A stretch of DNA of 64,000 nucleotides. Source: Rhodococcus sp. 14-1411-2a (GTDB taxonomy: Bacteria > Actinomycetota > Actinomycetes > Mycobacteriales > Mycobacteriaceae). The position numbers were made by a program, and so were the translations under genes. Positions 28,897 through 58,899 of this stretch are shown in pieces; the stretch's first letter is position 1, and each line of letters opens with the position of its first letter. The notes under the pieces were generated by a model. That model was given only the letters and a program-made list of their open reading frames with translations. It searched no databases and was not told where the DNA came from. The stretch is from positions 124,001 to 188,000 of the forward strand of contig NZ_NPGA01000020.1 in the NCBI RefSeq assembly GCF_002259485.1. The letters are read 5' to 3'.

Positions 28897-29292
28897 GTGA
28901 GCCAGGATTCTGATCAGCGCTCGACCGACGCTTTGCGCACGGCGGCCTCCGAAGCGGAATCGGAAGGCCATCGCGCAGTCGGCGAGCAGAAGCTTGCGGA
29001 GTTGAGGCGCGAGTTGGACGGAATCGACGAAGTTCTGCGCGCTGCAATTCGAGACCGCATCGATGTGTGTGTACGTGTTGCACACGTAAAACGAGAACAC
29101 GCCATTCCGATGATGCAACCAGGCCGTGTCGGATTGGTGACAGAGCGAGCGAGAGAATTCGCGTCGGCCAATGGGATGTCCCCCGACTTTCTCGAAGATC
29201 TGTACCGAACGATGATTGCAGAGGCATGTCGCGTCGAGGATTCGATCATCGATTCTCCGACGCCCGGGCCGGGCCTCGACAGGAAACGGTAG
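28897..29292 (+). CDS. papB: Chorismate mutase-family protein, probable ADC mutase (PapB-like)
   Basis: The 131-residue AroQ-fold helical protein has the chorismate mutase core from about residue 33 (KLAELRRELDGIDEVLRAAIRDRIDVCVRVAHVKREH). The loop after it reads IPMMQPGRVGLVTER. As I know the family, this MMQP-type loop replaces the usual P-x-xDxxRE stretch of metabolic chorismate mutases in the enzymes that rearrange 4-amino-4-deoxychorismate (PapB of pristinamycin, CmlD of chloramphenicol). It starts with GTG at 28897, and the fused ADC synthase gene follows ten bases after its stop, which is the pap gene pair. The first 30 residues are a charged extension. An ordinary chorismate mutase remains possible. 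Confidence 0.75.
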   Translation: MSQDSDQRSTDALRTAASEAESEGHRAVGEQKLAELRRELDGIDEVLRAAIRDRIDVCVRVAHVKREHAIPMMQPGRVGLVTERAREFASANGMSPDFLEDLYRTMIAEACRVEDSIIDSPTPGPGLDRKR

Positions 29293-29302
29293 AAGCACGC
29301 CG

Positions 29303-56100: not shown

Positions 56101-58899
56101 CTCCACCCCACCGAACACCAACGGCGGAGCGATCACCATCGTCGCCCCACCCGAGAACGCCAACACGAACTCGAGAATCGAGGCATCGAAACTCGGCGAC
56201 GCGAACGCCAACACCCGCGACGACGGACCCACACCGAACCGAACCCGCTCCTCGGCAGCCAAGTTCCCCACACCACGATGCGTGACCACCACACCCTTGG
56301 GCACACCCGTCGAGCCCGACGTGTAAATCAGATACGCCGCATCATCGAGCCGCAACACACCCGAACGCTCCACATCCAACACCGGAGCAGACGACCGAAA
56401 CGCCAGATCCGCCATCACATCCGGATCATCGAGCACCACCCACGACACCCCACCCACACCCGAGAGCGCACCCACATCCGCACCCAACGTCACACCCACC
56501 ACAGCACCCGAATCGACCAACATGTGCTCGATCCGATCCACCGGATAATTCGGATCCACCGGCAAGAACGCACCACCGGCCTTCGCCACCGCCCACACCG
56601 CCACCACAGACTCCACCGACCGCGACAACGCCAACGCCACGAACGACCCCGGACCCACCCCACACGACATCAACATCCGCGCCAACCGCGACGACGCCGC
56701 ATCCAACTCACCATACGAAACAGACCGCGACCCCGACACCACCGCAACTCCACCGACACCAGCAACACCCACCGCACCGGCCAACAACTCCGGCAACACC
56801 ACACCCACCACAGACCGCGGACCACGAACCGGAGCCAGGCGCGCTCGCTCGGCGGTGGACAGCAGATCCACATCGCCTATCGGCAGATCGGGCTCGTTGG
56901 TCGATGTGTCGAGAACGCGGACGAGGCGACGGGCGAGTTGAGCCGTGCTCGCGGCATCGAACAGTTCTGTGGCGTAATCGAAAACGACGGTGACAGAATC
57001 GGACTCGTCGACGGTGACGACCAGATCCATGCCGACTCCGTCACGCGGCAGTGCGGACGGACCGAACCGGAGCGCAACCTGAGCGAGGGGGCTGTGCGAT
57101 TCCGTTCGAGGCAGATTCAAGGCCTGAACGACGTCGTCGAACGACGTGTCACCGTGTGCCATCGCCGCATCGAAGTCGGCTGCGGACGCATCGACGAATT
57201 CGGTGAACGACTGCCGAACGTCGGGTCGGTTTCGTAGCGCGACGGTGTTTCCGTGACCCGCGGGTACGGCTATCACCAGGTCGTCGGTGTTCGCCAGTCG
57301 CGAAAGCAGCACGGCGAGAGCAGATTCGAGAACCACGAACGGCGTCGTGGACCGTTCTGCCGCCAATCGAGTCACTCCGGACCACGTTTCGGATCCGATC
57401 GTCACCTCGTGGGATGCGCGAACGTGTCCGATGTGCGAGGCGCGCGAGCGGTCGGTCGGAAGATCGAGGAGATCGGGGGCGTCGGCGAGCCGTTCGGTCC
57501 AGTAGGCGAGCTGGGCTGCCGCGCGCCGCCGGCGCTGGCCCTCGCGTGCGCTGACCGGATGGACGTCCAGAACAGCGGTCTCGGGCCCGGCCGCGATGAA
57601 GGCTTCCACCATGTCGACGAAGCTCGAGTGGTGCGCGGTGAGGTCGTCGTCGTCGTACCGGTTGGGGTTGGCCCTGAAATCGACGAACGTCCGGGCCGGA
57701 GATCCGCTTTGATAGACGTTGACCAGGAGGTCCTCGACCGGACCCGAGGTCACGATGTTGAACTCGCCGACGATCGACCCGAGTTCGATCTGCTGATGGA
57801 ACAGCATCATGTTGACCATCGGGCCGGACAGCTGCTTGTCACTACCCGAGGCCGCCAGCTCGCGCCGAATGTCCTCGATGCTGAAGCGCTGGTGCCGCAG
57901 CGCTCCCATCAGTTCGAGCTGCACCTGCTGAACCAGCTCGCCGACGGTCGCGTCCTGGGGCACGTGGATCGAAATGGGGGCGACGTTGACGAGCATTCCA
58001 CCGGATCGGCGAAGCAACGCGGTGGTGCGCGCGGACACCGGGATGTTGACCGAGACGTCTTCTCGCCCGGTCATTCGCGAGAGGTAGCAGCCGAAAGCGG
58101 CGATGAACACCGCAGCCGCGGTTCCACCCTTGGTCGCGTCGGACGCCTCGAGCTCGGCGACGACGTCCTCGGGGAGAGCGACGCTGCGCAACTTGCTGGC
58201 AGCGATCGTGCGACCGGCCGTGTTGGACAGAGAAGCTCCGTCCTGGATGTCCGCGGCGCGAGCAGTCCAGTACGCCTTGTCGGACTCGAAGCGCGACGAC
58301 GTCCGGTATTCCTGATCGAGCTCGTAGAGTCGGCGAAGCTCGGCCGCCTTGTTGGGAGCAGGCTCGACGTGTTCGACGGCCGCCGTGTACAGCGCGGCGG
58401 TTCGGTTGACGAGAGTCATGGCACCGTAGCCGTCGAGTGCGACGTGGTGAATCTTGCTATACCAGAGGTTGCGATCGTCCTCGACCTGAATGATCCAACT
58501 GTCGACGAGGGGGTCGTGTTCCATGTCGACGGGCTTGACGTAGTTCTCGTCGATCCACCTCAGCGCCGACGCCATCGGGTCCTCGGCATCACGCAGATCG
58601 AGGTAGTGCACCGACTGGTCGATGGAGTGATCGACCAGCTGTACGGGTTCGCCGTCCACCTCGGCCAGTCGGAGATATGCGGACTGGAACTCGTGTCCGG
58701 CCTGAGCCGAGGCCTCTTGCAGAACGCCGATGTCGAGGTTGCCGCGAAGGTCGACATATTGTGCGATACAGACCGGGACGTCAGGGGCAAGCTGCTGAGC
58801 GAACCACATGCCACGCTGAGCGGACGACAGCGGGAAACCGTTCTCGAAGCCGGGGCCGGTCGGGGGCGTCTGAGATCCACCGGAAATTGCTGCGCGCAT
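32128..58899 (-). CDS. Seven-module non-ribosomal peptide synthetase
   Basis: One 8923-residue enzyme builds a heptapeptide on its own. Domain order from the N-terminus, with approximate DNA positions: C1 with HHVALDG (58.84-57.58 kb), a degenerate extra C lobe (57.54-56.84), A1 (56.84-55.31), T1; C2, A2 (53.6-52.1), T2; C3, A3 (50.42-48.90), T3, E3 (48.6-47.2); C4, A4 (45.8-44.3), T4; C5, A5 (42.6-41.0), T5, E5 (40.7-39.3); C6, A6 (37.9-36.4), T6; C7, A7 (34.7-33.2), T7; TE (32.9-32.1, GWSLGG nucleophile). All C domains keep HHxxxDG, all T domains keep GGxS, and T3/T5 have the GGDSI form seen before epimerases. C4 and C6 look like D-donor condensation domains ([10 protein letters not shown]), matching the two epimerases. 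Starting with a C domain suggests that the first residue is N-acylated. A2 reads DVWHFSLVDK (Ser) and A5 DFWNIGMVHK (Thr). The other codes are DALFVGAIFK (A1, A3), DALFAGAIFK (A4), DALFVGGIMK (A6) and DAYFAGGIQK (A7), read by eye. AAGGGC precedes the ATG. Confidence 0.97.
48896..50423 (-). repeat. A-domain repeat copy B (module 3)
   Basis: This 1528-bp block matches 55310-56837 base for base without gaps; I count about 21 mismatches by eye (about 98.6% identity). It spans the entire adenylation domain of module 3, from APVRGPRSV to LDRTALPEP. Its codons differ from the flanks: Gly is mostly GGT, Val GTG, Leu TTG and Asp GAT, whereas the rest of the gene prefers GGC, GTC, CTG/CTC and GAC. Confidence 0.97.
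55310..56837 (-). repeat. A-domain repeat copy A (module 1)
   Basis: This is the second copy of the block at 48896-50423, 6414 bases away, encoding the whole adenylation domain of module 1. I see only three protein differences from copy B (for example DVM/DVV and AAGA/AAGS), so both modules must activate the same residue. It shares the foreign-looking G/T-ending codon usage of copy B. Confidence 0.97.
56838..57537 (-). other. Degenerate second condensation-domain lobe in the loading module
   Basis: Residues about 455-688 of the synthetase repeat only the C-terminal half of a condensation domain: [61 protein letters not shown] and [14 protein letters not shown]. There is no HHxxxDG half, and the usual [10 protein letters not shown] stretch is missing. 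It follows a complete C domain and ends exactly where the A1 repeat begins. Confidence 0.75.

Follow-up and report, generated by a model that had tools for sequence, protein, structure and literature searches.

A 64-kb stretch of the Rhodococcus sp. 14-1411-2a genome (contig NZ_NPGA01000020.1, positions 124,001 to 188,000; hereafter the window) carries a seven-module nonribosomal peptide synthetase (NRPS) on the minus strand, and two plus-strand genes, papB and papA, converge on it. We propose, with moderate confidence, that the product of this locus is a humimycin-type heptapeptide, linear or cyclised and capped at its N-terminus, with 4-aminophenylalanine or an aryl-N-oxidised form of it, most likely the 4-nitro form, at positions 1, D-3 and 4. 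That the synthetase uses the product of the pap pathway is a step that we hold to be fairly probable. The proposal is built on direct observations, namely the domain order of the synthetase, the enzyme families, the gene order in relatives, the co-occurrence of the genes, and the tree positions of papA and of an N-oxygenase gene, nox. The enzymes are of known kinds. Their combination was not found in the openly licensed literature searched, and no statement linking a humimycin-type NRPS to pap genes was found there.

Domain order and predicted peptide of the synthetase

The initial annotation described a seven-module synthetase ending in a thioesterase (TE), and the present analysis bears this out. 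A motif scan of the open reading frame (ORF) at 32128-58899 (minus strand; 8,923 amino acids, aa) found seven adenylation (A) domains, with A3 core motifs at aa 859, 1927, 2997, 4537, 5597, 7159 and 8229, as well as seven carrier motifs, of which a strict pattern gave six and a looser one the seventh, at aa 2315. The nine HHxxxDG motifs represent seven condensation (C) and two epimerisation (E) domains. The latter, at aa 3568 and 6190, read HHLV[VI]DGVSWRI, which we take to be the E-domain form of the motif, and they follow modules 3 and 5; the C domains directly after them, in modules 4 and 6, read HHILLDGWS, and the other C domains differ. The overall order is C, truncated C fragment, A1-T; C-A2-T; C-A3-T-E; C-A4-T; C-A5-T-E; C-A6-T; C-A7-T-TE. 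The type I TE (approximately 32128-32950) has the motif GWSLGG at aa 8745, near 32667.

The N-terminal C domain (57550-58899) is probably of the starter type, and its best NCBIfam matches are MxcG and EntF. Many of its best family matches begin ORFs of about 8.8-9.2 thousand aa, and others begin ORFs of about 7.4 thousand aa or broken ones. Between it and A1 lies the C-terminal half of a second C domain (approximately 56700-57520) without HHxxxDG. This fragment is probably old, since the N-terminus and A1 lie about as far apart in the counterpart from R. erythropolis.

The A-domain codes were read from a motif-anchored alignment, with positions placed by motif according to the GrsA position scheme. 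Modules 2 (A3 core motif at 53092-53121) and 5 (42082-42111, with the E motif following near 40332) have DVWHFSLVDK and DFWNIGMVHK, which we take to be the textbook codes for Ser and Thr. The codes of modules 1 and 3 are both DALFVGAIFK, the E motif after module 3 lying near 48198, and modules 4 (45262-45291), 6 (37396-37425) and 7 (34186-34215) have DALFAGAIFK, DALFVGGIMK and DAYFAGGIQK. The module order and the E domains after modules 3 and 5 agree with the heptapeptide pattern put forward in the initial annotation, and the predicted product is X1-Ser-D-X3-X4-D-Thr-X6-X7. The A domains of modules 1 and 3 share 97% identity at both the protein and the DNA level, compared with 65-72% in DNA for the other A-domain pairs. 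A single residue type should therefore fill positions 1 and 3, and position 4 probably takes a similar one. The DNA identity of these two domains (approximately 55300-56900 and 48900-50480) is also a sign of recent gene conversion.

Seven-module NRPSs of 8,860-8,887 aa are found beside rbpA, with lnt beyond, in R. erythropolis, R. qingshengii and R. globerulus (the R. globerulus stretch includes lnt only in part). The comparison of codes and domain order suggested by the initial annotation gave the same module pattern and the same Ser2 and Thr5 in this group. The R. erythropolis codes are DALFVGAVVK, Ser, DALFGGAVVK, DALFTGVISK, Thr, DGFFVGAVMK and DAFFAGGIQK, so that the window codes are close to them, yet not identical at positions 1, 3, 4, 6 and 7; modules 1 and 3 end in AIFK in the window and in AVVK in R. 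erythropolis. The rbpA/lnt neighbourhood is common to both, but the order is NRPS-rbpA-lnt without pap genes in R. erythropolis and rbpA-papB-papA-NRPS-lnt in the window. Because of the shared architecture and neighbourhood, we assign the window NRPS to the humimycin type, as the representative of that type in its clade. The R. erythropolis enzyme itself is, judging by its match, probably the published humimycin B synthetase.

Humimycin A is described as Tyr-Ser-D-Tyr-Phe-D-Thr-Val-Val with a beta-hydroxymyristoyl cap, and humimycin B, on our reading of the table there, differs at positions 4 and 6 (PMC12024397). The R. equi gene iupU is reported to encode the humimycin A NRPS, and the clusters to hold an amidohydrolase and an N-acyltransferase (PMC5550956). 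As in the window NRPS, the humimycin synthetases have seven modules, Ser at position 2, a D-residue at position 3 and D-Thr at position 5. Unlike the product proposed here, the humimycins were designed with Tyr and Phe and with no pap-derived residue.

A predicted pap pathway divided between two loci

The initial annotation placed a fused 4-amino-4-deoxychorismate (ADC) synthase and a chorismate mutase with an MMQP loop opposite the synthetase. Both assignments passed the family profiles. The papB gene (28897-29292, plus strand) is predicted to encode a 4-amino-4-deoxychorismate mutase of the AroQ fold with a PMMQPxR loop; it starts with GTG, and the real start may lie further downstream. PapB scores 60 bits against Pfam CM_2 and 75.5 bits against TIGR01803 (cut-off 73.35). 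Relative to the structure 3rmi, its mutase loop shows D to Q and E to V replacements, and the loop [PA]-[MV]-[MV]-QP-x-R recurs throughout the papB family alignment. In the E. coli mutase, the corresponding loop residues touch the 4-hydroxyl of chorismate, a group absent from 4-amino-4-deoxychorismate. The genome has one further CM_2 gene, outside the window, and this other chorismate mutase retains the RE motif that PapB lacks. PapB thus looks like an AroQ-type mutase that belongs to this pathway and is separate from the primary enzyme. PchB is among its weak PDB matches, but a role as isochorismate-pyruvate lyase was rejected, since the papC- and nox-containing operon of relatives argues against it.

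The papA gene (29303-31375, plus strand) encodes a fused glutamine amidotransferase and predicted ADC synthase with GATase, Anth_synt_I_N and Chorismate_bind domains (Pfam Chorismate_bind 298 bits; TIGR00553, pabB, 366 bits, cut-off 328). PapA has the motif PIKGT and the TrpE of this genome PIAGT; the lysine presumably marks ADC synthases. Among 31 Chorismate_bind loci tested, PIKGT was present in 14 of 14 PapA and PIAGT in 14 of 14 TrpE-type loci, with three having neither (L007, L202 and L200); the test covered the stronger PF00425 matches with assigned loci, and L200 gave no match to the motif pattern. This last locus (G309:C6:57915-58685) is from a member of the genus in which papA was not found at E <= 1e-130, and its chorismate-binding enzyme is of neither motif class. 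PapA looks like an ADC synthase, and the anthranilate synthase considered in its place was rejected on the strength of the motif and the family scores.

The initial annotation had also held that the papA/papB pair supplies 4-aminophenylalanine. The two genes fit such a set; they are insufficient for it, since papC is also needed, and a search of the 64-kb window found no papC. The papC of this genome lies on another contig (G000:C3:191850-192752), immediately followed by nox (G000:C3:192752-193738). PapC exceeds the cut-off for PDH_C and is about 60% identical to the G178 papC that adjoins papA. The idea that TyrA is the sole dehydrogenase was abandoned once papC had been located. Nox matches Pfam AurF (PF11583) at E 2.9e-51, and its best PDB match is 5hyg (E 5.5e-82, 279 bits), presumably CmlI, followed by the AurF structures 2jcd and 3chh (7e-47; 164 bits). 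Judged against our assumed list of diiron ligands, its motifs EQ, DEQYH, AE and HNRDEYCH line up with 2jcd and 5hyg, and Nox is a predicted arylamine N-oxygenase of the AurF/CmlI type. Because papC is paired with such an enzyme, the residue may equally well be the amine or an N-oxidised form, nitro or otherwise. On this contig, a DUF4442 gene precedes papC, and nox is followed by an ABC-2 exporter consisting of an ATPase and two permease-like ORFs (L171:9344-14549). The exporter may serve the peptide.

We infer the enzyme activities, the incorporation by the NRPS, the oxidation state of the nitrogen and the N-terminal cap. PapA would convert chorismate to 4-amino-4-deoxychorismate, PapB would convert this to 4-amino-4-deoxyprephenate, and PapC, encoded on the other contig, would form 4-aminophenylpyruvate, from which a general aminotransferase would give 4-aminophenylalanine. 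The CmlI-like N-oxygenase beside papC would oxidise the arylamine before or after assembly, and the same residue would be placed at positions 1 and D-3. The split pathway would have arisen from two related papB-papA-papC-nox operons, each of which lost the complementary half.

Parts of this scheme have precedents. Pristinamycin papA-papB-papC provide an NRPS with 4-aminophenylalanine, and we know of no AurF-type N-oxygenase in either the pristinamycin or the dnacin system, the peptides of which differ from the window heptapeptide. In dnacin biosynthesis, papA-papB-papC are described as supplying an NRPS with the same amino acid (PMC7570522). The chloramphenicol cluster of Streptomyces venezuelae leads from chorismate to an oxidised arylamine through cmlB, cmlC, cmlD and cmlI (PMC4249514), the functional equivalents being cmlD for papB, cmlB for papA, cmlC for papC and cmlI for nox. 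The chloramphenicol genes serve a small molecule made with CmlP, whereas the present genome has a seven-module NRPS and genes split over two loci. In obafluorin biosynthesis in Pseudomonas fluorescens, the AurF-related ObaC is reported to oxidise a 4-aminophenylalanine-type precursor to the 4-nitrophenyl compound (PMC5490192); assembly differs there, employing a threonine transaldolase and a beta-lactone.

Gene order, co-occurrence and trees in relatives

Within 34 loci, all 20 with a papA at least 71% identical hold rbpA, papB, papA, a 211-aa ORF and the NRPS TE together. The 211-aa ORF (31431-32066, minus strand), between papA and the NRPS, encodes a protein that is predicted to be secreted, has a glycine-rich C-terminal stretch and gave no Pfam or NCBIfam match; its homologue is in the same place in those 20 loci, and a 78-aa match in all four g9 loci. 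The adjacency of papA and the NRPS was read in the fetched loci, and the two are on separate contigs in some draft genomes. In groups g9, g21, g27, g23 and g15, papB-papA is followed by the counterparts of papC and nox, a prephenate-dehydrogenase-like gene (about 300 aa) and then one of about 337 aa. The initial annotation knew of no Rhodococcus heptapeptide synthetase tied to pap genes. This statement does not survive, as the operon adjoins this NRPS type in other genera, and iupU in R. equi by the published locus tags. The papB-papA-papC-nox genes adjoin a seven-module Ser2/Thr5 NRPS in 4/4 g9 and 3/3 g21 genomes, and a fifth g9 genome, G198, also has them by the NRPS. The order in the four g9 genomes is papB-papA-papC-nox-(211-aa-like ORF)-NRPS, with PIKGT in papA where tested (G178 and G158).

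In R. equi 103S, REQ23860 is annotated as a chorismate mutase, REQ23850 as a fused TrpEG, REQ23840 as a prephenate dehydrogenase and REQ23830 as a hypothetical protein, with iupU as REQ23810 (PMC2947987). On the published locus tags, this order matches that of g9, and REQ23860-23830 look like papB-papA-papC-nox beside iupU.

The NRPS starter domain (E <= 1e-200) is present in 30 of the 37 genus genomes searched, all 30 of which have both papA and nox; nox also occurs in three of the seven members without the starter domain. Across 401 genomes drawn from the family, nox was found in 94 of the 97 that have the starter C domain at E <= 1e-145, compared with 14 of the 304 that lack it. The genome-by-genome counts cover the starter domain, papA and nox; the family lists were compiled by eye at E <= 1e-145, and G385 and G236, which fall narrowly short, were scored as absent. 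The three starter genomes scored as lacking nox are G066, G073, which has a 175-aa nox piece, and G030, where the stretch read shows papB-papA-papC but not nox. At E <= 1e-130, papA was missed in two of the 97 starter genomes (G181 and G198), and papA pieces were later read in both.

For the trees, 54 contexts were offered and 47 papA, 28 nox and 33 papC rows kept; rows were left out when shorter than 550, 270 or 220 aa, respectively, when broken by stops or when the gene was absent, among them the G073 nox and the two-part G020 papA. The window papA falls in a clade of 26 rows (97/97) with the operons at the rbpA locus of g9, g21, g27 and g23, apart from papA of the exporter locus. The nox tree has a 100/100 split that puts the nox of this genome with the exporter-locus operons, opposite the nox of the rbpA locus; one exporter-side row, L151, has no exporter in the piece read. 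In five fetched genomes of the window's genus, the same exporter locus occurs without papB-papA. Reciprocal loss of operon halves would be the simplest history. It can only be inferred, as a search of the papC-nox locus in three members of the genus for remnants of papBA gave nothing beyond chance matches (best E 0.32). G292 carries a 1.5-kb insert (L253:7431-8985) between the DUF4442 gene and papC, where R. erythropolis carries papB-papA; by eye, it holds an HxlR-like regulator ORF and an oxidoreductase-like ORF.

The use of the pathway product by the NRPS is the weakest step, in view of missing adjacency, nox without the starter, the six-module NRPSs and the Tyr-like pockets. A different view of the same genes is that pap-nox is real but feeds another product, either through a second NRPS and exporter or as a chloramphenicol-like small molecule, that the rbpA position is inherited and that the heptapeptide contains Tyr or Phe. 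We consider this unlikely, though it deserves serious weight, and several observations weigh with it against our proposal. Another NRPS adjoins the papC-nox locus of this genome (TE-bearing end at L171:17857-19899), and in 5/5 fetched genomes of the genus, papC-nox lie next to other NRPSs together with a DrrA-like ABC exporter. In 7/7 R. erythropolis-group loci, the complete set, as DUF4442-papB-papA-papC-nox-exporter, lies near a different large NRPS, and no pap genes were found beside the humimycin-type NRPS in R. erythropolis, R. qingshengii, R. globerulus, G115 or G271. Ten g8 genomes have nox, with the full set where it was read, and no humimycin-type starter; G122, G356 and Gordonia amicalis are genomes in which the full set was read. 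This indicates that the pathway has other uses. In G228, G071 and G073, rbpA and pap genes have a related six-module NRPS nearby that keeps the Ser and Thr codes, and a similar one in G066 occurs without nox; the loci concerned are L145-L148, L237-L238 and L241-L242. The humimycin predictions had Tyr or Phe at the aromatic positions, and synthetic, Tyr-containing humimycin A is reported to be active (PMC12024397); the A1, A3 and A4 pockets are Tyr-like. PapC is below the cut-off for PDH_N. The trees also contain discordant rows: three Gordonia-type rows located away from rbpA fall on the rbpA side for both papA and nox, the G030 papA, adjacent to rbpA, falls outside the 97/97 clade, and the 95/91 papC fork holding this clade's papC excludes the R. 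erythropolis group. Finally, the co-occurrence counts ignore the relatedness of the genomes. Against the supply of another product, the NRPS beside papC-nox is not one conserved gene, as the TE of this genome and that of G145 are 39% identical and the A codes of G145 and G292 differ, whereas papA accompanies the humimycin-type starter in all 30 genus members found to have it and is adjacent to the NRPS in 20/20 loci. Within the g9 and g21 stretches read, moreover, the full set adjoins the humimycin-type NRPS only.

The pocket codes do not decide between Tyr and 4-aminophenylalanine. A strict correlation of pocket code and pap genes was sought and not found: six-module synthetases with DAFFTAAIVK occur both in G073, where the pap genes are adjacent and nox is just a 175-aa match, and in G066, where no nox was found at E <= 1e-70 and the papA, 50% identical, is on a different contig. 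All 13 out-of-genus genomes in which DALFxGAV(V/I/A)K codes were read in this NRPS type have papA (R. erythropolis, R. qingshengii, R. globerulus, G014, G158, G110, G178, G052, G113, G020, G030, G115 and G271), leaving no negative control that separates the two residues. In G069, pap-nox is adjacent to the NRPS, but the codes at positions 1, 3 and 4 are different.

That papB and papA are ordinary metabolic genes, either an extra chorismate mutase and anthranilate synthase, as published for R. equi, or folate pabAB, seems to us improbable. The initial annotation had named a primary mutase and folate pabAB, together with A-domain predictions of standard amino acids only, as what would overturn its reading, and this applies only in part. 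The PF00425 matches in the genome are PapA, TrpE and an isochorismate-synthase-like protein, and PIKGT was found in PapA alone, so PapA may be the only ADC synthase and may also serve folate; papB and papA nevertheless look distinct from the primary enzymes. In R. equi, REQ23860 and REQ23850 are described as co-regulated with the virulence plasmid and required for full growth in macrophages, which was read as aromatic amino acid supply, but the mutants grew normally in broth (PMC2947987). A metabolic role is further opposed by the consistent division of PIKGT and PIAGT between PapA and TrpE-type loci, by the TIGR01803 score and missing RE motif of PapB, and by the operon of relatives, where papC and an arylamine N-oxygenase would be useless for folate or Trp. 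Least probable of all, to the point of being barely credible, is a pathway that yields an aryl acid, 4-amino- or 4-nitrobenzoate, to cap the N-terminus rather than an amino acid. The MxcG and EntF matches of the first C domain would suit such a cap, and 4-aminobenzoate is, from the family name, the AurF substrate; the mutase and prephenate-dehydrogenase-type genes point instead to the phenylpyruvate series, and the N-oxygenase is much nearer to 5hyg than to AurF.

Flanking genes and significance

The housekeeping gene rbpA (28277-28615, plus strand; Pfam RbpA 140 bits), for an RNA polymerase-binding protein, anchors the locus and lies near this NRPS type elsewhere. On the other side are lnt, for an apolipoprotein N-acyltransferase (59558-61165, minus strand; TIGR00546 281 bits, over cut-off), also found near the NRPS in R. 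erythropolis and g9, and a conserved amidohydrolase gene (Amidohydro_3; 61140-62735, minus strand; Pfam 285 bits). These last two genes, whose names correspond to the amidohydrolase and N-acyltransferase of the published clusters, look like flanks of the site rather than tailoring genes. The region is bordered by genes for a NarL-type response regulator (63359-63994) and a Kef-type cation antiporter (25320-27056).

The humimycins arose from the prediction of an NRPS product followed by synthesis. We tentatively extend our proposal, at somewhat less than even odds, to the natural peptides of humimycin-type Rhodococcus NRPSs in general, including that of IupU. In these, 4-nitro- or 4-aminophenylalanine would take the place of the Tyr or Phe of the designed humimycins at positions 1 and 3, and in this clade also at position 4. 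REQ23860, REQ23850, REQ23840 and REQ23830 would make this building block, so that a nonribosomal peptide or a precursor of it would lie behind the macrophage phenotype. This would offer an alternative reading for two R. equi macrophage-growth genes that have been explained by aromatic amino acid supply. If reciprocal loss is the true history, one pathway would be stitched together from two clusters and would be overlooked by genome mining of single clusters. Should 4-amino- or 4-nitrophenylalanine prove to be the true residue, the humimycins that were tested would not be the natural compounds, whose activity and role would then need fresh assessment.

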